The position numbers and the translations under genes were made by a program. The notes beneath the pieces were generated by a model. That model was not told where the DNA came from. It made no database searches and saw only the letters and a program-made list of their open reading frames with translations. From an uncultured Neomegalonema sp. (GTDB taxonomy: Bacteria > Pseudomonadota > Alphaproteobacteria > Rhodobacterales > Rhodobacteraceae), in NCBI GenBank assembly GCA_937928005.1, contig CALFVD010000044.1, forward strand, positions 21,584-85,583: a stretch of 64,000 nucleotides of DNA, given 5' to 3'. Shown in pieces: positions 40,370-57,601 of this stretch (positions are counted from its first letter, which is position 1; every line of letters begins with the position of its first letter).

Positions 40370-40384
40370 AACGGCGCTTCGACC

Positions 40385-41077: not shown

Positions 41078-41222
41078 CCGCCTCGCCATTGATGACCTGC
41101 TTCCCGACATTCTCGAAATTCACCGTAATTCGATCCTCAATAACTGATTGCACTTGGCCCACACCCCAGTCAGGAAATTTCGGATGACGCACGAGGACAC
41201 CGACCGTTAATAATTCGTTCAT
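41052..41222 (-). CDS. DUF3553 small protein
   Basis: This 56-residue gene reads MNELLTVGVLVRHP, then PDWGVGQVQS and NFENVGKQVI. That pattern (an RHP-x3-DWG-x-GQVQS core) is the small DUF3553 beta-barrel seen in alphaproteobacteria, related to CarD/UvrD-tail RNA polymerase-interaction folds. The stop at 41052-41054 makes it overlap the 3' end of mnmD by 26 bp on the opposite strand. A function in transcription or repair is inferred only from the fold. Confidence 0.8.
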   Translation of the reverse strand: MNELLTVGVLVRHPKFPDWGVGQVQSVIEDRITVNFENVGKQVINGEAVTLELESF

Positions 41223-41276
41223 ATTTCTCTCGTTTCTGTGTACGTCGTATTACCGTTTATTCATCTTTGGTGCCCG

Positions 41277-41897
41277 ATGACCGATCTGACCTTCGCATCC
41301 CTGCTCGCTTCGCGGATTTGCCATGACCTCATCAGCCCTGTGGGGGCGGTGAATAATGGGCTAGAAATCCTTGCCGACGAGTCAGATGCCGAAATGACCG
41401 CCCAAGCGATGGATCTGATCCGGTCAAGCGCAGCGAGCGCATCGGCCAAACTTCAATTCATGCGCCTCGCATTCGGCATGGCTGGCAACGTATCCGAGAT
41501 GGTGTCACTGGACGAGGCAAAATCGCTGGCTAACGGCATGGTTGCGAGCGGGACCACCAGGCTCGACTGGCAAGTTGGGGCGCAAAGCCTCGATAAAGCG
41601 GTCGTTCGATTATTGCTCAACATGATTCTGATCGGCTTCGAGGCATTACCACGAGGAGGCATCCTGCGCGTCGGGGTACAGCGTGCCGGAGCCACGAATC
41701 TAATGATATCCGCTGAAGGGCCAAAAGCACGACTGCCTGAGAAATCGGCGGCAATCCTGCGCGATGGGGCCGAACTCTCGGCGGTCGAACCGCGCGAATC
41801 CAACATGCTGCTCACCCACACCCTCGCTGCTAATCTCAAGAGCGGCCTGAACGTAGTGATCGGGGATGAGACCATCGAAATTGCCGCGACGATCTAA
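41277..41897 (+). CDS. ChpT-like histidine phosphotransferase
   Basis: The 206 residues open with MTDLTFASLLASRICHDLIS, in which His16 is the phospho-accepting residue of the ChpT family (a dimeric kinase-like four-helix bundle followed by a degenerate ATPase-like domain). VGAVNNGLEIL completes the H-box. In Caulobacter-type cells ChpT passes phosphate from CckA to CtrA and CpdR. It is not next to other such genes here. It converges on and overlaps the phnM-like gene by 4 bp. Confidence 0.82.
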   Translation: MTDLTFASLLASRICHDLISPVGAVNNGLEILADESDAEMTAQAMDLIRSSAASASAKLQFMRLAFGMAGNVSEMVSLDEAKSLANGMVASGTTRLDWQVGAQSLDKAVVRLLLNMILIGFEALPRGGILRVGVQRAGATNLMISAEGPKARLPEKSAAILRDGAELSAVEPRESNMLLTHTLAANLKSGLNVVIGDETIEIAATI

Positions 41898-43030
41898 AGC
41901 AGCCGTGCAGCCATGGGCGCGGCCATCCAAGCAAAGCGTCCGGCGGCTATGGTGCAGACGATCCGGCGTGTATCTTCCTCGATTATCACGAGATCGGCGC
42001 GCTTGCCTTGTTCAATAACGCCGCGATCCGCCAAACCAAGCAAACGCGCAGGGCCACTTGATACCAGCGCCCATGCTTCACCCAGCGCCATGCCATCGTC
42101 TTCCAACATCAATGCTGCCTGCGCCAATGACGGATAGTGGTAATCCGAGGCGAGCGCATCACAGAGACCATCGGCAATCAGTTCCCGCGCCGAGACCCCG
42201 CTCCCATGTGAGCCACCCCGTACCACATTCGGAGCACCCAACACGATTCCTCGCCCCGTCGCCCGTGCGGCTTCGGCGGCGGCACGGCTGATTGGAAACT
42301 CAGCAATTCCAACCCCTGACAATGTATTATCCACCGACACATCATCGTCATGGGTTCCAATTGTCACACCCGCACCGACCAACGCCGCCATAAACCCGGG
42401 CAGTCGCGCGCGAGCCTCCGGCATCCCCTCATGCAGCGCCTTCATCAATGCCAGATGATCTGCTGGAGAACACCCCGCCCGCAATGCCTGTCCATCAAGG
42501 CGTGGGGGTCGTTTGCCTGTCGCTAAGGCATCATGGGGCAGATGATCGGCTAGAACCAACATGTCGATACCGCATCCGGCCACGAGCGCGGCAACCTCAT
42601 CGAAATCGGCATGGCAGGCCGCTTCCAGTCGCAACTGCACTCGCATGTCGAGAGCCGCGTCGAAATCCGCCAGTGCAACACAAAGACGCCGCGCGAAATC
42701 TGGCCCACGCATCCCCCCTTGCCAACTCCAGAATTGCGCGAGCCATGCGGTCGTAATCCCGCATCCGCCCAGTTCGGTTTCTAACGCGCGCAGCCCATCT
42801 CCCAGATTGCGCAACGCACCTCGGCGCGGAGCGAGATGCCGCTCAAACGCATCGCCATGCAGATCGACAATCCCCGGCAGAATCAGGAAACCGCTCACAT
42901 CGACGCGCCGACCGCATGGCGCGCCAACAATCAGCCCCTTCGCCACCGATACGGCTTTGCGTGACAACCCGCCCGACAACAAAACGCGCGCACCATCCAG
43001 CGTGAAAGGCTTGGCGGCGGTAGTCGGCAT
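41894..43030 (-). CDS. phnM: PhnM-like amidohydrolase
   Basis: The 378 residues match alpha-D-ribose 1-methylphosphonate 5-triphosphate diphosphatase. LPGIVDLHGDAFERHLAPR near residue 52 holds the first metal ligands and the PhnM-specific region. VLADHLPH, THDDDVSVD and SDYHYPSLAQA, with the final metal-ligand Asp, follow. No other phn (C-P lyase) genes are nearby, so it is an orphan and could act in another amidohydrolase reaction. Confidence 0.78.
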   Translation of the reverse strand: MPTTAAKPFTLDGARVLLSGGLSRKAVSVAKGLIVGAPCGRRVDVSGFLILPGIVDLHGDAFERHLAPRRGALRNLGDGLRALETELGGCGITTAWLAQFWSWQGGMRGPDFARRLCVALADFDAALDMRVQLRLEAACHADFDEVAALVAGCGIDMLVLADHLPHDALATGKRPPRLDGQALRAGCSPADHLALMKALHEGMPEARARLPGFMAALVGAGVTIGTHDDDVSVDNTLSGVGIAEFPISRAAAEAARATGRGIVLGAPNVVRGGSHGSGVSARELIADGLCDALASDYHYPSLAQAALMLEDDGMALGEAWALVSSGPARLLGLADRGVIEQGKRADLVIIEEDTRRIVCTIAAGRFAWMAAPMAARLL

Positions 43031-43095
43031 AGGTAGGCATCCAACATCGTTACGGTCGAATCAAGCTTACCCGATTCAACCGCTTGTCGCGCTCG

Positions 43096-44394
43096 CTATC
43101 GTTTGACGCTGGTTTGCAGCCGATCGCCATTCGCAAAGGCGGCATTGACGCTAATGAATCCAGTCGCGTTAAAACCACTACCGAGCGAGAACACAACCTG
43201 CGATGCGTTAGGGTCGAACGGATTCGAGTTCCCTAATGACACAGCAGTCGTCTCAACCCCGTTGATCGTGCCCGAGCCTGCCGTCGCCGTCAGTGGACCA
43301 TCAGCCGGGCGCCCATCGGTGATGCCGGTAAAGGTGAAATCGGTCCCCGGTCCCAGCAACCGCACACTGGACAGCCCGACAATAATGCGCTCTGCCCCGA
43401 TGCTATTGGCCTCTAGCATTAGACTGCTCCCTTGCACAGGGCCAGGACCAGGGATGGGGGCTGGAGTTGGAACTGGTGCGGGAATTGGATCTGGAACTGG
43501 GGCCGGATTTGGGGCCGGGGCTGGACCGCTGGTGCGTACGATCTGCGTATCGAGCGTCACACCATTCGCGAAGGACGCATCCACATCAACCGTCCCAGTT
43601 GGATTGAACCCGCTCCCCACGCTCAAAACCGCGTCACTAAACGGACCAACGGCCACGGCGGTCGTTTGCTCACCATTGATGATGCCCGACCCTTGAGATG
43701 CCGTCAGCGGGCCATCGGCGGCACGGTTATCGGTCAGGCCCGTAAAGGTGAAATCCGTATTCGGCCCGATGATGCGGATGCTGTCAGCCCCGAAAATAAT
43801 CCGCTCTGCTCCAGCGTCATTTGGGCCAAGCTGCGACCCTTCGCCTGCGGGCGGGGATGGAGGGGGTGGTGCGACCGGCTCGCTGAACTGCACATTCTCG
43901 ACATTGCGCAGCACGACCCTGTCACCTGCATTCGAGGTGTAGGTCTGCCTGCCACGCGAGCCTTCCGTAACTGTGTAGTCAGCCTCGGAACCTTTTAGCG
44001 TAACCGTATCGCGCCCCGCACCACCATCGACATAAGCCGAGCCTTTAACCGTCACCTGATCATTGCCGCTACCAGCAAGAACGAAATCACGCCCTTCGCC
44101 CGTACGGATGCGGTCATTACCCTTGCCGCCGAGGATCAGGTCGTTGCCTCCACCGCCCGAAAGATTGTCATCACCAGAGCCGCCATTAATGAAGTCGTCA
44201 CCGCCCCGGCCCGAAATATTATCATCACCGCCCCGCCCGGACAGAAAGTCTCGCCCCTGTGTTCCCGTAAGGGTATCGCTGCCATTGGTCGGACGCGCAG
44301 GCTTGCCGCCCCGGCCCTTCGTCACCAAATCATCAAAAGTCGTGTTTGCCTGCCCACTAGAGGCTGCACCATTACCCGCTGCCCTATCGATCAT
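43096..44394 (-). CDS. RTX calcium-binding protein with tandem C-terminal modules
   Basis: The 432-residue protein lacks a Sec signal. Residues about 35-115 contain RTX nonapeptide repeats (SGRGGDDNISGRGGDDFI, GSGDDNLSGGGGNDLI) that bind calcium. After a VAPPPPSPPAGEG linker come two homologous modules of about 95 residues, each with GAERII, DFTFTG.TD, ADGPLTA, INGEQTTAV or INGVETTAV and SVGSGFNPTG or SLGSGFNATG. A long Pro/Ala-rich linker separates the modules. The architecture fits type I secretion, but no T1SS genes are in the window. It is divergent from the YcaO-TfuA region. Confidence 0.8.
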   Translation of the reverse strand: MIDRAAGNGAASSGQANTTFDDLVTKGRGGKPARPTNGSDTLTGTQGRDFLSGRGGDDNISGRGGDDFINGGSGDDNLSGGGGNDLILGGKGNDRIRTGEGRDFVLAGSGNDQVTVKGSAYVDGGAGRDTVTLKGSEADYTVTEGSRGRQTYTSNAGDRVVLRNVENVQFSEPVAPPPPSPPAGEGSQLGPNDAGAERIIFGADSIRIIGPNTDFTFTGLTDNRAADGPLTASQGSGIINGEQTTAVAVGPFSDAVLSVGSGFNPTGTVDVDASFANGVTLDTQIVRTSGPAPAPNPAPVPDPIPAPVPTPAPIPGPGPVQGSSLMLEANSIGAERIIVGLSSVRLLGPGTDFTFTGITDGRPADGPLTATAGSGTINGVETTAVSLGNSNPFDPNASQVVFSLGSGFNATGFISVNAAFANGDRLQTSVKR

Positions 44395-44944
44395 AACCCG
44401 CTCCCTTTCAATACATGTACCGTTACGAGATTACACTAAAAACATGTATCGAAACAGGACAATTTTGGGAGGCGATTCAGCCTGACGCAGCGAGTCGATT
44501 TAACCTTACCTATGATCACAGGGCCATGATGCGGATTTTAGCGATTTGCGCATTTGTTGTAGTCATGCTGCGGTTTTGGTTCCCTTAATAAGCTGATAAC
44601 AGCAGAATTAAGTATTGACCGTTCTACACCTGCCACCCTCGGAATCGTTCCGAAGGTCCATCTATCTAATATCGCTGAATTATGGATCGTTGGGACAACT
44701 CCGACAATAACGGCGAAGGAGTCAGCGATAAGAGGTGTTTTGGCACATGGTCCGGGATTTGGGGGCAAGCTTACACTGGATCAAAACACGCCATGAGACC
44801 ATTCGTGACGCGTCACAATCATTGAGATATAGACAACCTTATATTGAAACACTTTAAGTGGAGTCTGCGCATTGAAATCGGGCTTCTTCGTCCTTTTTTG
44901 ACGTGCTAACTTGTGAGCGTATTGTTTTAGCGGGAGTTCTTGAG
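44395..44944. other. 550 bp intergenic region upstream of the YcaO-TfuA cluster
   Basis: It is AT-richer than its flanks and should hold the divergent promoters of the RTX gene and the cyclase operon. A fragment TTTTAGCGATTTGCGCATTTG at about 44534 resembles one end of repeat copy 2 and may be a relic. A frame open from 44563 to 44793 has no start codon; I treat it as non-coding or as a gene remnant. No tRNA or riboswitch is evident. Confidence 0.5.
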
Positions 44945-47900
44945 TTGGCATCAGGCAGAGCGAATAATTGTCCTGAATGCTATGCTGCCAGTGATCCGAA
45001 TGCTCGATTTTGTTCCTCGTGCGGCGCACGGCTCACAAAAGTGCAGACCAGCGAAACGCCGGGTGAACACCGTCAGATCACTGTGATGTTCTGCGACCTT
45101 GTTGGCTCTACCGATTTATCGCGTAAGTTGGAGCCTGAAGACTTGCAGCTGTTGCTACGTCGGTATCAGACAATCTGCGCTGGTGCGATTGAGGCGAGAG
45201 GCGGCATGATTGCGCAGTATCTCGGCGATGGAATCTTAGCCTATTTTGGCTATCCTAAAGCCGCCGAAAACGCGGCGGAGCGAGGGATTGCAGCCGCACT
45301 TGCTATCGTTCGTGAGATACGGGAGGAAGATGCCCGTAAATCCTATGGCCCTGAGATCGAATCTGCCACCCGTATCGCGTTGCATACGGGCCGCGTTCTC
45401 GTGGGGGAGATGGGTGCGGGATCGACACGCGACCAGCATGCAATCACGGGTGTTGTCCCAAATCTCGCCGCGCGGCTCGAACAATGCGCCCCAAAGAATG
45501 GCGTCGTCGTCAGCCCGGAGACGATGTCCCTTGCCGTACGGAATTTTGCATTCCGCTCCCTTGGCCCACAAGAGTTGAAGGGCTTTGCCGACCCCGTCGA
45601 CGTGTTTCAGGTGCTCGGCCCCCGCGCCCGTATGTCGGTATTGCCCGAACATAACATACCGCTTCTGGGACGTGAGACGGAGCTTGCCGCCCTACATACA
45701 TGCTGGTCCAACGTGGAAGCAGGACACCCTGCGCGCATGGCAATTTTCTCTGCGCCGGGGGTCGGGAAATCATCCCTGACATCCGGCTTCATTGACGACC
45801 TTGAACTACCCGCGCGGCAGATCATCGAAATCTCTGGTTCCAATACCAGCCGCAACACGCCCTTCATCAGCCTGCGTGAAACGATAAAGCGGTGGCTCAC
45901 AGCATTGCGTAACGATGACGGGATATCCGATGAGGCAATTATCGCGGAATGGTTCCGCCTGCCCAATATTGCGGCCTCGGCGGATGCACAGTTCCTTCTG
46001 TCGTTCATCAGGGACGACATTACCGTTGATGCCGAAACGCGCCCTGCCCTCACCGCTGCCTGCGCTGCCCTCATTGCCGCCCTGCCTAAGCCACTTGCGC
46101 TCGTGGTTGAGGATGCCCATTGGGTTGACCACTCAACGCTGGAATTGCTGGATGGCATCGCGCGGGACCGTGCAGGAGTGCTGTTGCTGCTGCTCGCACG
46201 CCCGGACCACGGGGTCGAGTCGTTCGTGAAAGAGGCGCAGACGATCCGTCTTACCCCGCTGGACGAAGGCGCTTGCGGGCGGCTTGCCGCATCGGTGGCG
46301 GGCGCGCCCCTTGAAAAGCGGATTGTGAAGCGGATATCCGAGATATCCGACGGCGTTCCCTTGTTCGTGGTTGAGCTGACCAAGGCACAGATCGCTTCTG
46401 GTATCATTGTTCTGTCGCGCGGGGTCTATCGCGAAACAGATAATCCCGCCGTAACCGATACCCCCACATCACTGCTCGACTTGATTACCGAGCGCCTCGA
46501 TGGTCTAGGGCGCGGTAAAGTTCTGGCGCAGGTGGCCGCCGTGATTGGTCGGCGCTTCGACACATCGGCATTGAGCATCTTGCTGGACGAAGACATCGCC
46601 ACCGTCGGGATACAGCTCGACCGGTTGGTCGAGGACGGTATCGTCACCCGTGAATGGAGCGGGCAATTCGTCTTTGCCCATGCCTTATACCAGAAGGCCG
46701 CTTACGAAACCCTCGTGCGTAGCATACGCAAAGACCTCCATGCGCGATATGTCGACTGGCTGCATGAAAAACCCGCCCGGCTAGAGACGTTGCCCGCCGA
46801 AGCCCTCGGCTTTCATCTGGTGGCCTGTTATCGCTACGATCTGGCGCTGGAGCAATATCTCGCGGCGGGCCTAACGGCGAAAGTCGCCTCAGCGAGCCAT
46901 GAGGCTGTCTCCCAATTCGCCAAGTGCCGTGATCTGCTGGATCGGGCGGCACCAGATGACGGTATCCTGCGGCTGCACATTCAGGTGTTCCTTGCTGACG
47001 CCCTTCTCTCCGCGCGCGGGTCAGGGGCACCGGAGACGCGGGCCGCTTACCGTCTTGCCGTGGAGATGGCCGATGGTCTACCCGAATCCGAATGGCATTT
47101 TGCCGCCTATTGGGGGTGGTGGCGCGTGTCGGAGGATTTCGCGGTTATGGCCGAGCGGGGGCAACGTCTGTTGCAGATTTCTGACCGGATGCAGGGTGAA
47201 ATGTTCAAGCTGCAAGCCCGACACTGTGCATGGGCGAACGCTTTTCAGACAGGCCAGATCGGCTCAACCCTGGATTATGCCCGCACCGGGCTGACCCTTT
47301 ACGAGAGCGGCTCGTTCACAAAGACCGAAATGCTCTATGGCGGGCATGACTGCAAGGTTTGTGCGCATGGCAGCATTGCGTTGGCCAGTTGGTTAAACGG
47401 GGCCGGGGATGCGGCAGTTGCCGATGTCGAGGCCGCACTCACCAGTGCCGAGCGTCTCGACCATGCGGGGAGTATTCTGCACGCCCTCGATATCGCCGTG
47501 ATGCTGCATTATTATCGCGGTGATACCAAAGCTTGCCGTAGTTTGGCGCAACGCCTGCACGATCTAGCCGATATCCATGACCTTAGCGAGTATCGAGCCA
47601 AGGGCGAGATTTTTGCCGGATGGGTTGATACCTGTGAGGGCAAGTTACGCGACGGGTTGGCACGATTAGAAGCTGGGTTCGCCATTATGCGCGAAGTAGG
47701 CACGCCAGAGGATTTCCCCGTCTATAACGGGATGCGCGCCACTGCACTCGCAGCTCTTGGTGAAACCGATGCCGCCTTTGCTGCGCTGAGCGATGCGCGG
47801 GCGGTCATGGCGGAGGTTGGCGTTAGTTATTGGAGTGCCGAAATCACACGGCTTGAAGTAGAAACCATGATCCGCGCCTCTTCCCATGATGCCGTAGCTA

Positions 47901-48115
47901 TTGCGAAACAGATCAACGCCGCCACCAAAATCGCCCGTGAACAGGACGCCCGCGCCCTCGAATTGCGCATCGCGATCACGGCACACCAATATACGGGCGG
48001 AGCCGAGACTGCCGCCACCTTGCGCCGGGTATTGGATGCCCTTGGCCCCGACCATACCAGCCGTGATGCGGTCGTAGCGCGTGATCTACTCAACATGATG
48101 GAAATAGCGGAATGA
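44945..48115 (+). CDS. Zinc-ribbon / class III cyclase / AAA ATPase / TPR-type regulator
   Basis: The protein has about 1056 residues. A zinc ribbon CPECYAASDPNARFCSSCG comes first. A class III nucleotidyl cyclase domain carries both metal Asp residues (VMFCDLVGST, YLGDGILAYFG) and GVVPNLAARLE. A STAND-like P-loop (IFSAPGVGKSS) with Walker B-type LALVVEDAHW, and a C-terminal helical TPR-like half, complete it. It probably makes cAMP or is a cyclase-gated sensor. Start: TTG at 44945 with GGGAG 8 bp upstream; GTG at 44903 is possible but lacks a ribosome site. The stop overlaps YcaO (ATGA), tying this regulator to the peptide-modification genes. Confidence 0.85.
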   Translation: MASGRANNCPECYAASDPNARFCSSCGARLTKVQTSETPGEHRQITVMFCDLVGSTDLSRKLEPEDLQLLLRRYQTICAGAIEARGGMIAQYLGDGILAYFGYPKAAENAAERGIAAALAIVREIREEDARKSYGPEIESATRIALHTGRVLVGEMGAGSTRDQHAITGVVPNLAARLEQCAPKNGVVVSPETMSLAVRNFAFRSLGPQELKGFADPVDVFQVLGPRARMSVLPEHNIPLLGRETELAALHTCWSNVEAGHPARMAIFSAPGVGKSSLTSGFIDDLELPARQIIEISGSNTSRNTPFISLRETIKRWLTALRNDDGISDEAIIAEWFRLPNIAASADAQFLLSFIRDDITVDAETRPALTAACAALIAALPKPLALVVEDAHWVDHSTLELLDGIARDRAGVLLLLLARPDHGVESFVKEAQTIRLTPLDEGACGRLAASVAGAPLEKRIVKRISEISDGVPLFVVELTKAQIASGIIVLSRGVYRETDNPAVTDTPTSLLDLITERLDGLGRGKVLAQVAAVIGRRFDTSALSILLDEDIATVGIQLDRLVEDGIVTREWSGQFVFAHALYQKAAYETLVRSIRKDLHARYVDWLHEKPARLETLPAEALGFHLVACYRYDLALEQYLAAGLTAKVASASHEAVSQFAKCRDLLDRAAPDDGILRLHIQVFLADALLSARGSGAPETRAAYRLAVEMADGLPESEWHFAAYWGWWRVSEDFAVMAERGQRLLQISDRMQGEMFKLQARHCAWANAFQTGQIGSTLDYARTGLTLYESGSFTKTEMLYGGHDCKVCAHGSIALASWLNGAGDAAVADVEAALTSAERLDHAGSILHALDIAVMLHYYRGDTKACRSLAQRLHDLADIHDLSEYRAKGEIFAGWVDTCEGKLRDGLARLEAGFAIMREVGTPEDFPVYNGMRATALAALGETDAAFAALSDARAVMAEVGVSYWSAEITRLEVETMIRASSHDAVAIAKQINAATKIAREQDARALELRIAITAHQYTGGAETAATLRRVLDALGPDHTSRDAVVARDLLNMMEIAE

Positions 48116-49332
48116 GCGCCAGCAAACGCTGGCGTACAGGCGGACGCCGCGCCCGCACCCCCACCGAGACATGGCGGATACTGCGCCCCCTCCTGCCCGT
48201 CTTTGGCATTACCCGTGTCGCAGACCTAACCGGGTTGGACCGGATCGGCATCCCCGTCTTCACCGCCTGTCGCCCTAACTCGCGTTCGCTCTCGGTATTC
48301 CAAGGCAAGGGGTTGGATCGTGACGCGGCTCAAGTCTCCGCCGTGATGGAGGCGGTAGAGACATGGTGCGCCGAACAGATTACCGCCCCGCTGAAATTTG
48401 CCAGCATCGACGAAATGATGCCCACGCATGATCTAGCCGACCTTGCGCGCCTTCCTCTGATGACCCCTGAAGGCGTTGATCCGGCGCAGCCTTTCTTGTG
48501 GATTGAGGCCGATGACCTGCCCACAGGGGCACGCCGCTGGTTGCCTTTCGAGTTGGTCCACGCGAATTACGCCCAGCCCGAACCCGCACATTCGGGCGGA
48601 TTTCTTAGCACAACCAATGGCCTCGCCTCTGGCAATACGCGCGATGAAGCGGTGCTGCATGGCTTGATGGAAGTGATCGAACGGGATGCCCTGACCCTTT
48701 GGAAGCTCGGTCCGCAGGCATGGGATGGCGCGACCGCCCTCGCCCTCGATACCGTGGATGACCCCGCCTGTCGTGATATACTCGACCAGTTTAAGAGCGC
48801 GGGCATCGACGTGATGGCTTGGGATGCACGCTCCGATCTTGGCGTGCCGTGCTTTCTGGCCTTGATCTGCGACCGCGAGAGCGAGCCGGGTGTAGCTGAG
48901 TTCGGTGGCGGGGCGCATCCGGCACCTGAAATCGCTTTGCTACGCGCCCTGACCGAAGCGGCGCAGGCCCGCCTTACCTTCATCAGTGGCGCGCGTGAGG
49001 ATATTGGCGATGATGCCTATACCCGCGCCGCGCAAACCGATCGACAAGCACAGGCACGCGCAATCATTGATGCACAAGCCCCTGCACTTGCGTTCTCGCA
49101 GATCAAAAGCTGTGAAACCGAAACCTTCGCAGGCGATATCACCGTGACCCTCGACCGCCTCGCCGAAGTTGGCATTACCGAGGTGTTGACCGTCGATATA
49201 GGGATACCCGGCCTGCCCTTTGCCGTCGTTCGCACGGTCGTACCGGGGCTGGAATCCGCAATGGAGGGCGCGGACAGCCCCTATGTCCCAGGTTCGCGTG
49301 CCGCTGCCTTGCTCGGCGAGGCCACACCATGA
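48112..49332 (+). CDS. YcaO-domain ATP-dependent backbone-modifying enzyme
   Basis: The 406 residues have the YcaO ATP/Mg site in three parts: SAVMEAVETW (E80, E83), GLMEVIERDA (E186, E190) and RALTEAAQARL (E282, Q285). The C-terminus lacks the PxPxP of azoline-forming YcaOs. YcaO enzymes activate a peptide-bond oxygen with ATP. When paired with TfuA, as here, the known outcomes are thioamides (thiovarsolins in Streptomyces, McrA thioglycine in methanogens). It is coupled by ATGA overlaps to the cyclase upstream and to tfuA downstream. The likely substrate is the repeat protein at 51348. Confidence 0.92.
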   Translation: MSASKRWRTGGRRARTPTETWRILRPLLPVFGITRVADLTGLDRIGIPVFTACRPNSRSLSVFQGKGLDRDAAQVSAVMEAVETWCAEQITAPLKFASIDEMMPTHDLADLARLPLMTPEGVDPAQPFLWIEADDLPTGARRWLPFELVHANYAQPEPAHSGGFLSTTNGLASGNTRDEAVLHGLMEVIERDALTLWKLGPQAWDGATALALDTVDDPACRDILDQFKSAGIDVMAWDARSDLGVPCFLALICDRESEPGVAEFGGGAHPAPEIALLRALTEAAQARLTFISGAREDIGDDAYTRAAQTDRQAQARAIIDAQAPALAFSQIKSCETETFAGDITVTLDRLAEVGITEVLTVDIGIPGLPFAVVRTVVPGLESAMEGADSPYVPGSRAAALLGEATP

Positions 49333-50057
49333 CGACCTGCGTTTTTCTTGGCCCTACCCTATCGCTTGATGCGGCACGCGCCGCGCTGGACGCGATCTAT
49401 CTGCCCCCGGCTCGACGTGGTGACATCCTGCGCGCAGTCGAGACTTATGCCCCAGACACTATCGTTCTGATCGATGGGTATTTTGAACAAGCCGCCGCTG
49501 TATGGCACAAGGAAATCCTATGGGCCTTGCGGGAGGGAGTGACCGTTTGTGGGGCGGCCAGCATGGGAGCGTTACGCGCCGCCGATTTGGCACAATTTGG
49601 GATGATCGGCATGGGCCGTATCTTTGACGCCTATATGTCCGGCACCTATGGTCCCTTTGATGATCCATTCGACGGCGACGATGAGGTCGCGATCCTGCAC
49701 GGTCCCGCCGAAATTGGCTACTTGCCCGTCACCGAAGCGATGGCCGATATCCGCGATACGCTGGCGGAGGCGAAGCGCGCGCAGGTCATCACCGAAGTCG
49801 AGATGACTACGATTGCGGCGCGCGCCAAATCAACCTTCTACAAGCGGCGCACATGGCCCACCCTTCTCGACATTGCGTCCCCTGCCCTGCGTGACTGGGT
49901 TGCCGCCAACCATATTTCCCGCAAATCGCTGGACGCCACGCATTTACTGGGCGAAGTTAGGCGAGGGGTAATCATGTCCAAACCCCCACCGTTTCGCTTT
50001 GAGCGGACGCTGTTGTGGGAACAAATGGCACCGGGCTTTACGCCGGAAAGGGGGTGA
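49329..50057 (+). CDS. tfuA: TfuA-like protein, YcaO partner
   Basis: The 242 residues show the TfuA core: VFLGPTLS at the start, LIDGYFEQ near residue 47, VWHKEILWALREG at 58-70 and VCGAASMGALRAADL at 73-87, then GMIGMGRIFDAY. TfuA was named from trifolitoxin synthesis in Rhizobium; as a YcaO partner it is thought to help deliver sulfur for thioamidation. The C-terminal 90 residues are helical and less conserved. It overlaps the YcaO stop (ATGA); the peptidase starts one base after its stop. Confidence 0.92.
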   Translation: MTTCVFLGPTLSLDAARAALDAIYLPPARRGDILRAVETYAPDTIVLIDGYFEQAAAVWHKEILWALREGVTVCGAASMGALRAADLAQFGMIGMGRIFDAYMSGTYGPFDDPFDGDDEVAILHGPAEIGYLPVTEAMADIRDTLAEAKRAQVITEVEMTTIAARAKSTFYKRRTWPTLLDIASPALRDWVAANHISRKSLDATHLLGEVRRGVIMSKPPPFRFERTLLWEQMAPGFTPERG

Positions 50058-50058
50058 C

Positions 50059-51294
50059 ATGCGCTTTTCGCTGAATGACGCCTTTCGCGCGACCGGCACC
50101 CGCTTTGCCCTCTACGCGCAATCCCCCGTGCTCGACGGGTTCGCCGAGCCGGAGACGATCTACGTCTCCTCACCGCGCGGCACGCTCCTGCCCGGCCCTG
50201 CCGATGACCGGATGTACGTGATCCAACCGCATGAGAAGCAGCCCTATGCGGGCGATGCCCTCCCACCCTTCCGTGGTCCATTCTCCCCTATGGCCATGCC
50301 CAGTTCAGACGGCCATTTCGATCACCTAAGCCCCGACGACCCCGGCTTTCGCAATGCACATATGTTCGGGACCGTCCGGCGTGTCCTCGACATATGGGAA
50401 ATCTATCTGGGTGGCCCCATACCGTGGAGCTTTGCCAACACACATCCCCGCCTCGAACTCATCCCCTATGTGCCATGGGACAACGCCCATTTCGGCTGGG
50501 GTTTCATAGAATGTGGTGAAGGGAAGGACGATCAGGGCGTGTTGCGTCCCTTTGCGTTGAACTTTGACATTCTTGCCCATGAGACAGGCCACGGGATGCT
50601 GTTTTCTATCGTCGGGATGCCACAGCCCGAAACCCTAACCACCGCCTATCGCGGGTTTCACGAATCGGCTTCCGATTGCATTGCCATGATCTCCGCACTG
50701 CATTTCGATACCTTCATCGACCATGTTCTCAACATCACGCAGGGCAATCTGTTCGTCGAGAACGAAATGAACCGTATCGGCGAGCTGTCGCGCACTCGTC
50801 AGATCCGCCGCGCCTCCAACGCCATGACTTTGCGGGATGTGATCGCCGTGAATACTGACCCCAACAAAGCAACCGGCAAACAGATTCACGCGCTGGGGCA
50901 ACCGCTTACCGGTGCCGTGTTCGATGTTATTGCCGAATTCTTCCTCGACCGACTAATCGCGCTGAAAGTCGTAGACGCGGATTCCGTACAACAAGTGCGC
51001 ATCGCCGCCAGTAGTGACAGATTACACGCCGTCGATTCGGCCCTGTTCAGTATCCCCTATCACGCCGACCCAAAAGGTTTCGCTATGGCGCTGGCGCAGG
51101 CGCGCGACATGCTCGGCCTACGCCTTGCGGAATGTTGGCGCCGCTTAACCCCCGACGATTTTACTTTCGAGGGTATGGTCGAAACGCTGCTAACGGTCGA
51201 TGCGGAGATTTCGGGACCGATGAATCGGCAATTGATCTTAGAGTGTTTTGAGTGGCGAGGATTAAGCCTCGAAAAAGTGGACAACAGACAATAG
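50059..51294 (+). CDS. Gluzincin-type metallopeptidase of the RiPP cluster
   Basis: The 411 residues have no signal peptide. The zinc motif HETGH (174-178) lies in LNFDILAHETGHGMLFSIVG. A second motif FHESASD (200-206), 24 residues on, supplies the third ligand Glu202 in the same way as the NExxSD motif of thermolysin-type (M4) peptidases. The overall length exceeds the M4 catalytic domain, and the N-terminal 100 residues are unassigned. It is probably cytosolic and follows tfuA by one base, so it is expected to cut the repeat precursor at 51348. The start MRFSLNDAF at 50059 gives one operon-like unit. Confidence 0.8.
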   Translation: MRFSLNDAFRATGTRFALYAQSPVLDGFAEPETIYVSSPRGTLLPGPADDRMYVIQPHEKQPYAGDALPPFRGPFSPMAMPSSDGHFDHLSPDDPGFRNAHMFGTVRRVLDIWEIYLGGPIPWSFANTHPRLELIPYVPWDNAHFGWGFIECGEGKDDQGVLRPFALNFDILAHETGHGMLFSIVGMPQPETLTTAYRGFHESASDCIAMISALHFDTFIDHVLNITQGNLFVENEMNRIGELSRTRQIRRASNAMTLRDVIAVNTDPNKATGKQIHALGQPLTGAVFDVIAEFFLDRLIALKVVDADSVQQVRIAASSDRLHAVDSALFSIPYHADPKGFAMALAQARDMLGLRLAECWRRLTPDDFTFEGMVETLLTVDAEISGPMNRQLILECFEWRGLSLEKVDNRQ

Positions 51295-51347
51295 CACTCG
51301 CCGTCCGTGTAGTGTAACATCAGTATATGTTTTAAGGGGGATATGCC

Positions 51348-52160
51348 ATGACGACGACCAGCCTGACTCCGAAAAATACGTTCACACTGTTCGGAAAAAC
51401 CGTCCCGATGCTGTTCGGAACGGATGCCCTACCCGAAGATCTGGCCGCTCATGCGCGCACCCTGTCGCTCAAAGAAGGTCGTGCCGCCGCCGTTGAAGGC
51501 GACTACTTCAAGGGCGATCTGGTTGCCGTCAGTGGATACATGCGCCACGGCGAGCGCGAACCAATTACCTTGCCCGAGCCACAAATGCTGCTCCTGCCCG
51601 GTAATCCGGTACAGCCCGATGGATTGGGCGACGCTGTCGAAGCGGCCTTCCCTGCTGACGAATTTTTGCGCTGGAACGTGGTTTTAGACGATGTGACCGT
51701 CGAGATCGGTGCCGAGGAAACCACCATCGGCGAGGCACTCGCCGGGGCCAGCGACGACATGGACGTCGCAGTGGACGGGGCCGGGTTTACCCTGCGTGGA
51801 GCCGATGGCCGCCTCTACTATGTGCCACAAAGCCTTGATGGCTTTCAGGTTATGGATGGCGACGACCGTGCGACCTTGATGGTCGCCCCCGGCACTGATC
51901 GCAACGACCTTACCGTCCGCGAACTATTCGACGATGGCACCGGCGGCATAATCCAGAGCCGCGCGATGATGCAGTCACGAGCAATGATGCAGAGCCGCGC
52001 GATGATGCAGTCACGAGCAATGATGCAGAGCCGTGCTATGATGCAATCGCGAGCCATGATGCAGAGCCGCGCAATGATGCAGTCACGAGCAATGATGCAA
52101 GCCCGCGCGATGATGCAGTCAAACCTACACGGACACGGTCATCATACCGATGACGAATAA
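51348..52160 (+). CDS. Multi-core RiPP precursor candidate with QSRAMM repeats
   Basis: The 270 residues have three parts. Residues 1-202 form an acidic, apparently folded leader-like domain (GKTVPMLFGTDALPEDLAAH near the start, LTVRELFDDGTGG at its end). Residues 203-256 are nine tandem hexapeptides, eight QSRAMM and one QARAMM. Residues 257-270 are a tail with HGHGHH and acidic TDDE. No signal peptide, no homology I can name. A strong AAGGGGG precedes the ATG, 53 bp after the peptidase. Position and repeats indicate that it is the substrate of YcaO-TfuA. The Met-rich units and His tail would suit metal binding. A thioamidated structural protein, rather than a released peptide, is the alternative. 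Confidence 0.75.
   Translation: MTTTSLTPKNTFTLFGKTVPMLFGTDALPEDLAAHARTLSLKEGRAAAVEGDYFKGDLVAVSGYMRHGEREPITLPEPQMLLLPGNPVQPDGLGDAVEAAFPADEFLRWNVVLDDVTVEIGAEETTIGEALAGASDDMDVAVDGAGFTLRGADGRLYYVPQSLDGFQVMDGDDRATLMVAPGTDRNDLTVRELFDDGTGGIIQSRAMMQSRAMMQSRAMMQSRAMMQSRAMMQSRAMMQSRAMMQSRAMMQARAMMQSNLHGHGHHTDDE
51954..52115 (+). repeat. Nine 18 bp tandem units encoding QSRAMM
   Basis: Units are CAGAGCCGCGCGATGATG (1 and 3 identical) alternating with CAGTCACGAGCAATGATG (2, 4 and 8 identical), so the basic duplicating block is 36 bp. Units 5, 6, 7 and 9 differ mainly at synonymous positions, and unit 9 changes Ser to Ala. Peptide conservation with alternating Ser codons (AGC, TCA) points to selection on the peptide. 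Confidence 0.95.
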
Positions 52161-52173
52161 AGCAACATCAAGC

Positions 52174-52581
52174 TTAATTCTCCTTGGGCGGCTCCGGCGG
52201 TACGGGTAGGATCGGCACTCCTTCTTCGTGCAGTGCCTTTACATCCTCCGCCGTTACTTCACCCCGAATTGGCGCATAATCCATAAGCCCTTCGTGCATA
52301 TCGCGCGCTTGATCGGAGAAAGCCTTACCTACATCCGTCGTCTCAGCCATTACCGTCGCGCGATACTCGGTCATCTTACGCATAATCTCACGCGGACCCG
52401 GTGTCGCGCTATCCGATTTTGCTGCAACATTAGGTGCCATTACCCCCTTCACCACATCGTTCGACCCACATTCTGGACACGCGACATGCCCCGCCCCGGC
52501 GAGCGAATCGTACGTTGCGCTATCGGCAAACCACATATCGAAATTATGCTTGTTGTCGCATTTGAGGGTATAGCGGATCAT
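52174..52581 (-). CDS. DUF1178 zinc-ribbon-like protein
   Basis: The 135 residues start MIRYTLKCDNKHNFDMWFAD and carry a CPECGSNDV half-ribbon near residue 33, matching DUF1178. The C-terminus (YAPIRGEVTAEDVKALHEEG) is typical of the family. The function is unknown; the cysteines suggest zinc binding. It starts at 52581; the longer frame lacks support. It converges on the precursor gene with 13 bp between stops. Confidence 0.85.
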   Translation of the reverse strand: MIRYTLKCDNKHNFDMWFADSATYDSLAGAGHVACPECGSNDVVKGVMAPNVAAKSDSATPGPREIMRKMTEYRATVMAETTDVGKAFSDQARDMHEGLMDYAPIRGEVTAEDVKALHEEGVPILPVPPEPPKEN

Positions 52582-52692
52582 GGTCGGTGCGGATGTCCTG
52601 TGCAATGGTTCACCATCACAAGATAAGTGGATGCTTGTGCGATACAATGGCTACGATTTACCGGCAATGGTCGTGCATGATACGGCTACCGT

Positions 52693-53979
52693 ATGACGCA
52701 GCCCGATCCTCTCCCCCCCCTCGTCAAAGCCGTCACCGCAACGCGCATCCGAGATATGGTTCTGATGGCAATGGCGGGCGTAAGTGGCGCATGGCTCGCC
52801 CCAATGGGCAGCCCAGCGGGTGGCGCGCTTATGGCAATTTTGGCGGCCTCCGCCCTCCGCCTCGCCATGCCAAAAGGTGCATGGCTCTGGCGTGCCGAAA
52901 GCCTGATCTCAACCCCTACACACAAGCGAGCCACGAACCGTAATGCGGATATTCTCGACCGCCTTCCAATCCCCTACCTCATCCTCGATGCCGAAGCGCG
53001 CGTTGTCTTCTGTTCAGCCGATGCCACCGCGCTCATTGCCCGTGATCCGCTTGGTCAACATATCGCCAGCGTATTCCGCGCTCCCGCCGTTCTCGCCGCC
53101 GTCGATCAAGCCCTTGCGAAAGGAACTGACGAAAGCCTCGACTTTACTGCCCTACGCCCAAAGCAACGCCATTTTCGCGCGTCTGTCCGAGCTGTAAACG
53201 GCATTGAGCAAGGAGAGGCCCGCGTAATTCTCGCCTTGTCCGATATGACTCAGATGCGCCAACTTGATGCCATGCGCATGGATTTCGTCGCCAATGCCAG
53301 CCATGAGCTGCGCACCCCTCTTGCCGCCATCACCGGCATGGTAGAGACGCTACAAGGCCCAGCCCGTGACGACACCGCCAATCGCGACCGTTTTCTAAAA
53401 ATCATTGAACGCGAGGCGGCGCGCATGGCCCGTTTGGTCGATGATCTTCTATCGCTGAGCCGGATCGAGTTGCAGGAAAATATCATCCCGACTGACCTCG
53501 AAGACCTCGCCCCCATTCTTGCAGAGGCGATCAGCGCAACAACCGCCTTGGCAACGGAAACCGGCAACACTGTCACCGTCACTCTCGACACAGCCCCCTT
53601 AATTGTGCGTGGCGACCGAGATGACTTGCTGCGTGTTTTTCACAATCTCATTACTAATGCGATCAAGTATGGTGGCACTGGCAACCCCATCAAAATCACG
53701 CTAACCACTGGCAAACCATCGCATTTTGGCATTGCCATTCGCGACTATGGCATAGGTATTGATCCAACCCTCATCCCTCGCCTAACCGAGCGATTCTTTC
53801 GGGTTAACAAGGGCGAAAGCATCTCACGCGGCGGCACAGGTCTGGGCCTTGCCATCGTCAAGCACATCCTCACCCGCCATCAGGGGTACTTACAGATCGA
53901 AAGCGTGCCGGGACAAGGATCAACCTTCACGGCATGGTTCCCCAAAGCAGAAAATGACGCCTATAGCGATTTGCAATAA
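52693..53979 (+). CDS. phoR: Phosphate regulon sensor histidine kinase
   Basis: The 428 residues carry two N-terminal hydrophobic segments (about 22-60), a PAS-like domain (ILDRLPIPYLILDAEARV), the phospho-accepting H204 in NASHELRTPLAAI, and ATPase boxes NAIKYGG, DYGIGID and GTGLGLAIVKHIL. It phosphorylates PhoB when phosphate is scarce. It is separated from phoB by the pst genes. Its last residues (YSDLQ) and stop codon are encoded by a copy of the 96 bp repeat, so the original C-terminus was altered. Confidence 0.92.
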   Translation: MTQPDPLPPLVKAVTATRIRDMVLMAMAGVSGAWLAPMGSPAGGALMAILAASALRLAMPKGAWLWRAESLISTPTHKRATNRNADILDRLPIPYLILDAEARVVFCSADATALIARDPLGQHIASVFRAPAVLAAVDQALAKGTDESLDFTALRPKQRHFRASVRAVNGIEQGEARVILALSDMTQMRQLDAMRMDFVANASHELRTPLAAITGMVETLQGPARDDTANRDRFLKIIEREAARMARLVDDLLSLSRIELQENIIPTDLEDLAPILAEAISATTALATETGNTVTVTLDTAPLIVRGDRDDLLRVFHNLITNAIKYGGTGNPIKITLTTGKPSHFGIAIRDYGIGIDPTLIPRLTERFFRVNKGESISRGGTGLGLAIVKHILTRHQGYLQIESVPGQGSTFTAWFPKAENDAYSDLQ

Positions 53980-54056
53980 ACCTGAGCCATATCTCACGCC
54001 AAGAGCCGCGCGAAATATGGCGTTTGATGATTCAGCACAACCGTAATTCGCTTTAA
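53961..54056 (+). repeat. 96 bp palindromic repeat, copy 6
   Basis: Full-length copy from CTATAGCGATTTGCAATAAA to AATTCGCTTTAA. The left 19 bp lie inside phoR and provide its stop codon (TAA at 53977-53979). The right end abuts the stop of the convergent hypothetical gene (54059-54061). Confidence 0.9.
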
Positions 54057-54058
54057 TA

Positions 54059-54808
54059 TCAACGTTTCTGGCGTGTTGCTTCATCTGTCATTGGTTGCGA
54101 AACCGCTTCGCTCTGTTTTCGCGCTGACATGCCTACCATCACACGCAGTGTTTTCAACATGTCCGTAAGCTTCTGTATCAGAAGCGCAATCGTCGCTTCC
54201 ATTCTCGATATTTCCTTGCTGACGGCCAGCGCATCCTCTCCCGGTGCATCGGGCAATAGATGACCTTGTGTCTCGGGTCCAGCAATGGGCGCGACGGGTG
54301 GTAATACCTCAGCGCCCTGAACCGGTGCGGCATGTGTTGGCGCTGCTGGAGGCTCAGGCAGGCGCATAAGACTGAATGGATTCGGCAGTATTCCATTGCG
54401 TTGATCAAGCAACATACTGGCAAACATCGACCCTGAAATCGACCGATTGGCATGGCGAGGTTCAGGCAAAGACAGGATCATCGCCCCGTCTTTCACTGCC
54501 GCTTCATCGGCTTGCGCCGCCGTCGCCGTTGTTCCCGAAACCGTAGCGATTTCGTCGCCATACGCCGTGGCCTCAATCGAAACGTCCTCAACGATCATAA
54601 AATCTGCATCATCGGGCATCGCAGTACCCGTAGATGCCATTGACCGTATCGACGACACCGATGCGACACCCGGCCCTGCCAATGGTGGTTGTGAGACAGC
54701 GGGATTCTGCCCATCAGTGCTATTTACGACCATATTCGCAAAATCGTTCTTCGATTTGGCCTCGGACCGTAATTCCCTCGGTAGTGCGCCGATTCCAACC
54801 TCTTTCAT
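54059..54808 (-). CDS. Hypothetical protein with C-terminal helix
   Basis: The 249 residues are low in complexity and Ala/Pro-rich in the middle (PEPPAAPTHAAPVQGAEVLPP). A probable amphipathic or coiled helix lies near the C-terminus (KEISRMEATIALLIQKLTDM). I do not recognise it. ATG at 54808 with AGGGGG upstream is preferred over 54823. It has no operon partner; it is divergent from the pst operon, with 340 bp between. Confidence 0.5.
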   Translation of the reverse strand: MKEVGIGALPRELRSEAKSKNDFANMVVNSTDGQNPAVSQPPLAGPGVASVSSIRSMASTGTAMPDDADFMIVEDVSIEATAYGDEIATVSGTTATAAQADEAAVKDGAMILSLPEPRHANRSISGSMFASMLLDQRNGILPNPFSLMRLPEPPAAPTHAAPVQGAEVLPPVAPIAGPETQGHLLPDAPGEDALAVSKEISRMEATIALLIQKLTDMLKTLRVMVGMSARKQSEAVSQPMTDEATRQKR

Positions 54809-54975
54809 AGCAGCCCCCTGCATTACGTAAGACGCTCATTTTCGCTACAATGTATCAGCTTGACACAAATTGCAATCGTAAGAGGATCAGCCGTAACGGG
54901 CACTGGGAAGCCGACACTAAACCAATTAGAATGCGCACAAGTACCTGTTTATAATAAACTATCATTGTCGCTTAA

Positions 54976-54993
54976 CTGTCATCATTCCGTAAT
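54976..54993 (+). promoter_or_regulatory. Pho box upstream of pstS
   Basis: CTGTCATCATTCCGTAAT has the form of a PhoB site: a perfect CTGTCAT half-site, 4 bp, then CCGTAAT (5 of 7). A weaker TTGTCGC lies 11 bp upstream in the same phase. It sits 156 bp before the pstS start. The rest of the 340 bp gap (54809-55148) shows no other gene. PhoB induction of pst-phoU-phoB is therefore expected. Confidence 0.8.
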
Positions 54994-55148
54994 ATTTCTT
55001 TGGCTGAAAACAGTGAAATTAGATCATCGGGATTGGGAAGGTTCCTAATGGGCGTTATGTTTGGACAATCCAGTTGATGACAAGCGCCTTGTCCCGAAGA
55101 ACACGTACTTCGCGCATTAATGCGCTTATCCTAAGGAGATCTTCTGAG

Positions 55149-56159
55149 ATGAAGACCACTCTCGCCCTCGCCGCCGTAGCCTCGCTGGTTGCTTCCGCAG
55201 CAATGGCACGCGACGAAATCCGCATCGTCGGTTCGTCCACCGTTTTTCCCTTCTCGACGGCGGTTGCCGAACAATTCGGCAAAAAGACAGATTTTGAAAC
55301 ACCGGTTGTCGAGGCCACAGGATCAGGCGGCGGCCTGAAACTTTTCTGCGCGGGTATTGGTGCAGAGCATCCCGATATCGCCAATTCGTCACGCCGCATA
55401 AAGCAGAAGGAATTTGACCTCTGCAAAAGCAATGGGGTCAAAGATATCATCGAAGTCAAACTCGGTTTCGATGGCATTGTTATCGGAAATGCCATTGATT
55501 CCCCCGCCTTCGATCTGAGCCGCAAAGATATCTACAAGGCTTTAGCTGCCGATGTTGCCCAATATGGCCGCATGGCCCCAAATGCCTTCGATAACTGGAT
55601 ACAGGTCAATCCTGCCTTGCCCAGCCAACCCATCGAAATCCTCGGCCCTCCACCAACCTCTGGTACTCGCGATGCCTTTGAAGAGCTTGCTTTGCAAAAG
55701 GGCGCGCGCGCGGCTGGTTTAGACAAGGCCGAAGCTAAAGAAGTCGAAGTGCGTAGCGATGGCGCCTATATCGAATCCGGCGAGAACGATAACCTGATCG
55801 TCTCCAAGCTAGAGGCCGATCCACAAAAACTCGGCATCTTCGGCTTTTCCTTCCTCGATCAGAATGCTGACCGCATCAAGGGTGCAATGATCGAAGGTGT
55901 GGAGCCGACCTTTGAAAACATCGCCTCCGGTGAATACCCCGTATCCCGCGATCTCTGGTTTTACGTTAAAAAAGGCCATATCGGCGTGATCCCTGGCATC
56001 GAGGAATACATGGACGAATTCCTCTCCGAAGATGCCATCGGCGAAGACGGGTATGCGGTCGAAAAGGGTCTTATCCCGCTGGAAGAGGACGAATTGTCCA
56101 AATTCCAATCCGCCGTGGCGAACCAAACGGTGATGACCGGCAGTGAAGATCTGCATTAA
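55149..56159 (+). CDS. pstS: Periplasmic phosphate-binding protein
   Basis: The 336 residues have a signal peptide (MKTTLALAAVASLVASAAMA). The mature start RDEIRIVGSSTVFPFSTAVAE and the middle PPPTSGTRDAFEELAL are phosphate-contact motifs. It delivers phosphate to PstCAB. The AAGGAG at 55134-55139 fixes the start at 55149. It is the first gene of the Pho-box-controlled operon. Confidence 0.95.
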   Translation: MKTTLALAAVASLVASAAMARDEIRIVGSSTVFPFSTAVAEQFGKKTDFETPVVEATGSGGGLKLFCAGIGAEHPDIANSSRRIKQKEFDLCKSNGVKDIIEVKLGFDGIVIGNAIDSPAFDLSRKDIYKALAADVAQYGRMAPNAFDNWIQVNPALPSQPIEILGPPPTSGTRDAFEELALQKGARAAGLDKAEAKEVEVRSDGAYIESGENDNLIVSKLEADPQKLGIFGFSFLDQNADRIKGAMIEGVEPTFENIASGEYPVSRDLWFYVKKGHIGVIPGIEEYMDEFLSEDAIGEDGYAVEKGLIPLEEDELSKFQSAVANQTVMTGSEDLH

Positions 56160-56239
56160 ACCGCAGACATGATATCTTCCCCATCCGATGGCCGCTTGGG
56201 TATCGGATGGTCTGCATTTTCGGGATCGGATAACGATTT

Positions 56240-57601
56240 ATGCTGAACTGGGCCGCCCTCATCATCTTCGCGCTCATGCTTGCGAGTTACATCATGGCTC
56301 GGCAACGGGCAGTGGCGCTGGGTGGCGATACGCCAGCGATCCTACATTCGCGCCCCACCTATCACGGTGCTTATGTTGCGATTTGCACGGCGCTGGCCGG
56401 GTTTGGTGTGCTGCTGATCGGCCTGATCCTCTCTAATATCGCTATAGGAACGGCGCTCGTTTCCAGCGTACCTGACGCCTTGTCACCCATTGAGCGCGAT
56501 CTTGTTATCTCTGACGGCATCGCCATTGCCAATGATACCCTCGCCTCGCGAACCGATGAATTGCGCGAAACCATAGCCGCCCTCTACACGAAGCTGACGA
56601 CCCTTCAGATATGGGGCATCACCATCGCCTCCATTGCCGCCGCTGTATTCGCCATGCTGCGCGGTATCGGGAGTGTTGCCGTCCCTTTCCGTGCCCGCAA
56701 TCGTTTTGAGCATATCGTCGGCCTGATCCTTATGGTCTCGGCGGGGATTGCGATCCTGACCACAATCGGCATCGTCGCTTCCTTGCTTGGCCAGACCATC
56801 GTGTTTTTCTCCGATATCCCGGTATGGAAGTTCCTGTTTGGCACCCATTGGTCGCCCTTATCCGGTGTGCATGAGGGTACGATGGACCCCGATAAAGTCG
56901 GCGCAATCCCACTATTTGCCGGGACGCTGATGATAACCATCATCGCAATGATCGTCGCGGTTCCTATCGGTCTGTTCGCCGCGATCTACCTCTCCGATTT
57001 CGCAAGCGCACGAGCGCGCAGTATCATCAAGCCGATGCTGGAGATTCTCGCGGGCATCCCCACGGTCGTCTACGGCTTCTTCGCCGCCATTACCGTCGCC
57101 CCTTTCCTTCGCGATACGGGCGCGGCCATAGGGCTATCCGTCTCCTCTGAAAGCGCGCTGGCGGCGGGGGTGGTGATGGGAATTATGATCATCCCCTTCA
57201 TCTCATCCTTGTCAGATGACGTCATCAACGCAGTGCCCCAATCCCTACGCGACGGTTCCTACGGCCTCGGCGCGACAAAGGCGGAAACGATCCGCAACGT
57301 CATCCTACCCGCCGCCCTGCCCGGCATTATGTCCGCTGTCCTACTGGGCGTCAGCCGCGCAATCGGCGAGACGATGATTGTCGTCATGGCGGCGGGGCAA
57401 GGTGCAAACCTGACCCATAACCCACTCGAAGCTGTCACCACCGTTACCGTCCAGATCGTCGCCCTCATCACTGGCGACACCGAGGCATCCACCGCTGCTG
57501 GCCCCGCCTTTTCGCTCGGCTTCACATTGTTCTGCATCACGCTGATCTTCAATGTCTGGGCGCTGGCGCTCGTTCGCAAATACCGGGAAGTTTATGACTG
57601 A
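56240..57601 (+). CDS. pstC: Phosphate ABC permease PstC with extended N-terminus
   Basis: The 453 residues are longer than the roughly 320 of E. coli PstC. The permease core from about residue 225 has AIPLFAGTLMITIIAMIVAVPIG and the coupling loop region YGLGATKAETIRNVILPAALPG. The N-terminal 220 residues add several helices (four hydrophobic segments), including one near 50 and one near 125. It overlaps pstA by 8 bp. Confidence 0.93.
   Translation: MLNWAALIIFALMLASYIMARQRAVALGGDTPAILHSRPTYHGAYVAICTALAGFGVLLIGLILSNIAIGTALVSSVPDALSPIERDLVISDGIAIANDTLASRTDELRETIAALYTKLTTLQIWGITIASIAAAVFAMLRGIGSVAVPFRARNRFEHIVGLILMVSAGIAILTTIGIVASLLGQTIVFFSDIPVWKFLFGTHWSPLSGVHEGTMDPDKVGAIPLFAGTLMITIIAMIVAVPIGLFAAIYLSDFASARARSIIKPMLEILAGIPTVVYGFFAAITVAPFLRDTGAAIGLSVSSESALAAGVVMGIMIIPFISSLSDDVINAVPQSLRDGSYGLGATKAETIRNVILPAALPGIMSAVLLGVSRAIGETMIVVMAAGQGANLTHNPLEAVTTVTVQIVALITGDTEASTAAGPAFSLGFTLFCITLIFNVWALALVRKYREVYD

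Follow-up and report, generated by a model that had tools for sequence, protein, structure and literature searches.

A peptidase-linked YcaO-TfuA gene cluster with a predicted multi-core hexapeptide precursor in an uncultured Neomegalonema sp., and its relatives

According to a preprint, the characterized products of YcaO-TfuA enzyme pairs comprise the thioviridamide-like, thiovarsolin, thiopeptide and chimeric lanthipeptide classes, together with the product of the std cluster (PMC13174530). The thioamide of thiovarsolin lies at Pro-Arg (PMC6511847), and that of the std product is on an Asn before Lys (PMC13174530). ThiS-like carriers act as the sulfur source for TfuA (PMC13063428). A survey counted more than 1000 proteobacterial TfuA clusters and termed their chemistry widely unexplored (PMC8120280). 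In this study, we describe a YcaO-TfuA cluster in a 64,000-nucleotide stretch of DNA (the window, whose coordinates are used throughout) from an uncultured Neomegalonema sp. (contig CALFVD010000044.1, positions 21,584 to 85,583). The cluster probably makes a ribosomally synthesized and post-translationally modified peptide (RiPP) of the multi-core kind, in which a dedicated peptidase (PEP) would cut a precursor (PRE) to yield the same sulfur-modified hexapeptide several times over, with a thioamide at the Ser-Arg of each QSRAMM repeat.

The cluster consists of five genes on the forward strand, in the order nucleotide cyclase/ATPase (CYC), YcaO, TfuA, PEP and PRE (Table 1). An earlier sequence-only reading had placed YcaO, TfuA and a gluzincin-like peptidase in a row, coupled or one base apart and followed by a repeat protein, and the coordinates and Pfam domains bear this out. 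YcaO and TfuA domains lie on adjoining genes joined by an ATGA overlap, the ATG of PEP is one base past the TfuA stop, and a gap of 53 bases lies between PEP and PRE. That reading began the cluster at 48112 and overlooked the cyclase gene upstream. The CYC stop overlaps the YcaO start by four bases, also ATGA, and the cyclase/AAA gene is part of the same unit as YcaO.

The precursor had been read as nine QSRAMM-type hexapeptides after a 202-residue leader, and this is correct, eight units being QSRAMM and one QARAMM. Tandem Repeats Finder (TRF) gave a score of 278 for a 36-base period across the array. This DNA period overlies an 18-base coding period because Ser and Arg codons alternate between adjacent units: Ser codons switch between AGC and TCA/TCG, and Arg codons between CGC/CGT and CGA. 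The nine units have six DNA sequences and only two peptide sequences, which differ by a single residue in one unit. In a crude count that covered 14 of 32 repeat arrays, the window's among them, nonsynonymous (pN) against synonymous (pS) divergence was 0.0225 against about 1.05 in the window and 0-0.08 against 0.45-1.16 in the 13 other arrays, pS being inflated because Ser AGC/TCA switches are scored as silent. Since silent sites vary and the peptide is constant, the window array is maintained as a peptide and is not fresh DNA slippage. Nor is the repeat due to chance, as six DNA sequences encode two peptides and the same repeat type occurs in eight loci. Each repeat is under purifying selection in the arrays examined. 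The model of the leader reached a predicted local distance difference test (pLDDT) score of 83-95 over residues 11-30 and 51-110 and 54-69 in between; it was confident only in parts of residues 11-112, and the tail and repeats were not modeled with confidence. M1 and W109 were the sole invariant residues in an alignment of 16 leaders, and leader length ranged from 118 to 222 residues in the 19 loci measured.

Table 1. Features of the YcaO-TfuA cluster in the window
Feature	Position	Strand	Evidence
CYC: class III nucleotide cyclase with AAA_16 ATPase, 1070 aa, GTG start	44903..48115	+	PF00211 E 6.3e-17; PF13191 E 7.2e-14
YcaO, 406 aa, predicted thioamide-forming ATPase	48112..49332	+	PF02624 E 1.7e-82; TIGR03266 251 bits; closest solved chain MJ1094 (6pe3), E 9.3e-31
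TfuA, 242 aa, predicted sulfur-delivery partner	49329..50057	+	PF07812 E 6.8e-42; 6xp8 E 9.4e-25
PEP: thermolysin/M36-like zinc metallopeptidase, 411 aa	50059..51294	+	fold model; Foldseek; zinc motif
PEP zinc motif HETGH	50578..50592	+	conserved in all 59 aligned homologues; E202 (50662-50664) the presumed third ligand
PRE: precursor, 270 aa	51348..52160	+	homologous leader adjoins PEP in 42/43 loci
PRE leader, 202 residues	51348..51953	+	PEP-linked precursors align over a beta-rich N-terminal part (about residues 11-112; 16 leaders aligned)
FTLRGADGRLYYVP element within PRE leader	51786..51827	+	shared with small open reading frames of three PEP-less TfuA loci, located between the cyclase and YcaO genes (hmmsearch)
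PRE core array: nine tandem hexapeptides, 8 QSRAMM and 1 QARAMM	51954..52115	+	TRF; unit-by-unit DNA comparison
PRE follower (tail) QSNLHGHGHHTDDE	52116..52157	+	

Related loci were gathered through PEP. A query with PEP yielded 852 proteins, the best 120 of which were listed, and six loci in named records, all with cyclase, YcaO, TfuA and PEP; a precursor was visible in five (one truncated at its end), and the sixth contig stops inside the leader. PEP was present in 13 of 61 genomes of relatives, in 11 of 385 of the class Alphaproteobacteria (8 of them strong matches) and, when searched by PEP profile, in 7 of the 398 phylum genomes and 19 of the 292 order genomes; the genome of the window is counted each time, and the sets overlap in some members. 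Dropping duplicates of the same genome or contig and keeping all strong matches left 43 loci, the window included. TfuA was found in all 43, and YcaO adjoins it in 42. The sole YcaO gene of the genome with locus L044 (G269; loci L044 and L143) lies on another contig, with a cyclase-like open reading frame (ORF) nearby, and the start of the contig truncates the YcaO gene of L030. In 42 loci the leader gene comes directly after PEP, in the same orientation; in L039 the contig stops 1 bp after PEP. A profile of the 16 leaders matched 21 further loci (E 1.2e-8 to 7e-32). By raw count, 36 of the 43 loci have a nucleotide cyclase gene no more than 2.2 kb from PEP, with 18 upstream on the same strand and 18 downstream on the opposite strand. 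Seven loci have no nearby cyclase (L030, L032, L033, L035, L039, L044 and L082), and the flank is partly lost at a contig end in L030, L033, L035 and L039.

This co-occurrence supports the earlier proposal of a multi-core precursor tied to YcaO-TfuA and a dedicated peptidase. The accompanying claim that the core, the leader and the peptidase matched no known RiPP family holds for Pfam and NCBIfam, in which neither PRE nor PEP had a significant family. The cluster does not stand alone but belongs to a family, because clusters with other repeats and a single-core branch, both missed in that reading, are its kin.

Tandem repeats were found in 32 of the 43 loci. The cores comprised 10 xSGAR, 9 xSGAK, 8 QSRAMM (window included, one reading QSRAAM), 8 single HMQM..HRGG-like and 2 xSGSR types, with one each of ASRAVM, DLVGRS and GMNV; three were unassigned (L006 and L039 truncated, L042 Arg-rich without repeats). 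Arrays of the QSRAMM loci held 4-15 units, two of them interrupted by a contig end, and the array of the ASRAVM locus (L038) held 12 RAVM units. The single-core loci have one conserved tail without repeats, and two of these eight tails carry AHRNGR. Leaders were alignable across core types despite the differing cores, and a conserved leader with a variable C-terminal core next to modifying enzymes is the arrangement by which a RiPP is recognized. In a quick PEP tree, the QSRAMM group and the single-core group each required one change (support 99), and all core groups together 10 changes versus 24.9 in shuffles; deep placement is unsure because several rows are long-branched. Three repeat types (QSRAMM, VSGAR and VSGSR) occur in the window's genus, and therefore the predicted peptides vary between close relatives; a PEP match was absent from 3 of the 14 genomes of this genus searched. 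Five single-core precursors, in named strains, are labelled hypothetical protein. In two single-core loci, a large homologous ORF whose start looks by eye like an AMP-binding or nonribosomal peptide synthetase-type protein lies upstream of the cyclase (L055:15243-17849, reverse strand; L056:249-3008, forward strand). A PEP homologue with 47% identity (P0111) came from a record named as a gammaproteobacterial metagenome-assembled genome.

These core types bear on the idea of a resident precursor comparable to McrA and uL16. Modification would then occur on the intact protein, its repeats would serve the cyclase as a sensor or scaffold, and PEP would govern its turnover. The large leader with its confidently predicted beta-rich part would suit such a protein, as would the proximity of the cyclase to PEP in 36 of 43 loci, its overlap with YcaO in the window and the fact that no recurrent transporter was seen in the flanks. 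However, the cores switch wholly (QSRAMM, VSGAR, GMNV, DLVGRS) with the leader still alignable, which marks a RiPP leader and core and not a functional domain, and we consider a resident protein quite improbable.

The top-scoring NCBIfam models were TIGR03266 for YcaO and NF033432 for TfuA, both equivalogs of McrA thioamidation. One ThiS-family protein is encoded in the window's genome, as in 11 of 14 control genomes. TfuA is extended at its C-terminus by about 200 residues in several clusters (L042:5964-7292, L039, L044 and L082-L092); the extension had no Pfam match in the one scanned (L042). The best Pfam matches of PEP were insignificant (E 0.1, and M36 at E 0.16), and PRE had none. Its AlphaFold2 model (mean pLDDT 91.3) resembled thermolysin and M36 peptidases in Foldseek (thermolysin 4ow3, E 2.9e-7; 4k90, E 1.3e-6). 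H174, E175, H178 and E202 were invariant, and with HExxH, a distal Glu and a thermolysin-like fold PEP is a gluzincin of the M4/M36 kind. Secreted enzymes of the thermolysin/M36 type generally have a hydrophobic N-terminus; PEP differs in having neither this nor a signal peptide (hydropathy maximum 0.38 near the N-terminus).

It is conceivable, though very improbable, that YcaO makes azolines on the repeat Ser and the product is a linear azol(in)e-containing peptide. The cores QSRAMM, ASRAVM, VSGAR, VSGAK, VSGSR and DLVGRS all contain Ser, and CYC resembles TIGR03903 (289.2 bits, below the 705.75 cut-off), a kinase/cyclase family named from thiazole/oxazole-modified microcin (TOMM) systems. 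Yet TfuA accompanies PEP in every locus and GMNV has no Ser. Moreover, neither an E1-like/ocin-ThiF partner nor a nitroreductase-type dehydrogenase was detected by Pfam in the five cluster and ten flanking proteins (39347-57598), and none was seen by eye to recur in the flank comparison.

For the thioamidated hexapeptides that we favor, the leader domain may dock the modifying enzymes, and YcaO-TfuA would swap the backbone oxygen for sulfur at the Ser-Arg bond in every QSRAMM repeat. PEP, likely cytosolic, would cleave the array after modification into units such as AMMQSR or MMQSRA. Thermolysin-like enzymes favor a hydrophobic residue after the cut. A cut of this type would fall before Ala or Met in QSRAMM and before Val in VSGAR arrays, and VSGAR would be released as such. 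The thioamide would sit on the residue preceding Arg or Lys and shield that bond. S(C=S)-R is predicted in QSRAMM because two published products are thioamidated before Arg or Lys and 40 of 41 readable cores, judged by eye, contain one of these residues. By the same analogy we predict the sites S-R in QSRAMM, ASRAVM and xSGSR, A-R or A-K in xSGAR/K and G-R in DLVGRS. One oxygen-to-sulfur exchange adds 15.977 Da, so the calculated [M+H]+ values with and without a single thioamide are 739.305 and 723.328 for QSRAMM, 650.311 and 634.334 for permutations of ASRAVM, and 505.255 and 489.278 for VSGAR. Thio-QARAMM (723.310) nearly coincides with unmodified QSRAMM, and thio-VSGAR with unmodified VSGSR (505.273). 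A thioamidated product would be expected to absorb near 270 nm (PMC6511847). The cyclase may tie the cluster to cyclic-nucleotide signaling.

It is also possible that the array is thioamidated but not chopped, so that PEP only takes off the leader and the product is one long poly-thioamide. The repeats are contiguous and free of spacers, the variation from 4 to 15 units would be tolerable for a polymer, and no exporter that might carry small peptides was seen to recur with the unit when the flanks of related loci were compared. On the other hand, the single-core branch pairs a homologous peptidase and an alignable leader with just one short tail, and the units are nearly exact under selection, whereas a polymer might allow them to drift apart. 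We therefore regard a polymer as unlikely.

Several points weigh against released hexapeptides with a thioamide at Ser-Arg. The YcaO and TfuA proteins score below the cut-offs of their best models (251 bits against 365 for TIGR03266, and 176.5 against 235.2 for NF033432). The position of the thioamide is drawn from two published products, and the YcaO-made thioamide of E. coli uL16 sits on the Met following Arg (PMC13063428); by that analogy it would fall on the residue after Arg, Ala in QSRAMM. GMNV (L044) is the one readable core that has no basic residue, and it also has no linked YcaO. Repetition is not required, because eight loci have a single conserved tail. PRE is the presumed substrate of PEP by gene order, and the chemistry, cleavage and function proposed for the cluster are predictions. 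As the loci were gathered via PEP, the PEP-linked counts are no random sample. The leader profile matched 7 of the 385 class genomes, all with the cluster (the strong PEP set minus G107, whose contig ends), and precursor homologues thus do not occur routinely without YcaO-TfuA; six of the seven leaders were themselves in the profile, so that the informative part is the 378 remaining genomes without a match at E 0.001.

TfuA itself was found in 21 of the 385 class genomes. Eight of its 25 genes are at PEP loci and 17 elsewhere, and PEP and the leader were absent from all 17 PEP-less loci. Some of these carry other repeat ORFs beside YcaO (L126:8931-9344, L128:8303-9253 and L136:8654-9088), and therefore repeats near YcaO-TfuA are not confined to PEP clusters. 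Their units are DDSQRHAANFIGTTP, AGRWA(V/I)(T/S)P and GKQRFA, each with an Arg after Q or G; L138 was likewise flagged for repeats and has no clear frame. In L129, L131 and L132, ORFs located between the cyclase and YcaO genes contain the RGADGRLY element seen in the QSRAMM leader (E 0.0021-0.0032, 2971 ORFs); the element was not found in the scanned single-core or VSGAR-type PEP loci. The window precursor seems from these matches to be a mosaic of a PEP-linked N-terminal part and an element of a wider YcaO-TfuA group. A Crp-type regulator with a cyclic-nucleotide-binding domain is encoded downstream of TfuA in six PEP-less loci (L125, L126, L128, L129, L131 and L132). In five of the six, a cyclase match also precedes YcaO (confirmed by Pfam in L126 and L131), and the two genes possibly form a cyclic-nucleotide circuit.

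Upstream of the window cluster, an RTX calcium-binding repeat protein (PF00353, E 2.4e-22) is encoded on the opposite strand (43096-44394, reverse strand).

Clusters of this kind also occur in related bacteria, mostly with quite different cores, and point to a natural-product source that has been little explored. The PEP family supplies exact core sequences and masses, a candidate rule for thioamide placement and a named species (Aestuariispira insulae, PEP record P0092), and the leader-array design may permit core exchange. In the literature searched, supplements excluded, we found no paper describing these repeats or a PEP-type peptidase with YcaO-TfuA; the 613 families of the 2021 survey may include some PEP clusters unnamed (PMC8120280).

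The PEP-less alphaproteobacterial loci share with the window the YcaO-TfuA pair, often a cyclase, in 3 of 17 the RGADGRLY element and in some a repeat ORF. They differ in having no PEP or leader-profile match (17/17), in a candidate precursor upstream of YcaO and, in six, in the Crp-type regulator. The thioamidation of a glycine in methanogen McrA is linked to the window by the top NCBIfam models and by MJ1094, the nearest solved YcaO; the window's YcaO and TfuA fall short of the equivalog cut-offs, and that system acts on an enzyme subunit rather than on a repeat peptide. The std cluster of S. thermodiastaticus likewise uses YcaO-TfuA to thioamidate the residue that precedes a basic one (SNK), and its precursor is trimmed by a peptidase of the cluster (PMC13174530). 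Its single core, its fusion of an S8/S53 peptidase with a carbamoyltransferase, and its multinuclear non-heme iron-dependent oxidative enzyme (MNIO) with a RiPP recognition element (RRE) partner are its own, and none is found among the five genes of the window cluster. The thiovarsolin clusters of Streptomyces and Nocardiopsis share the YcaO-TfuA pair and repeated short cores in the precursor (PMC6511847). Their amidinotransferase, ATP-grasp ligase and heme-oxygenase-like enzyme have no counterpart by Pfam in the five cluster and ten flanking proteins of the window; they also have a major facilitator superfamily transporter and, in the available text, no specific protease (PMC6511847). Thiovarsolin repeats are imperfect and number up to five (PMC6511847), whereas the PEP family reaches 15 nearly exact repeats and adds a dedicated peptidase and a cyclase.

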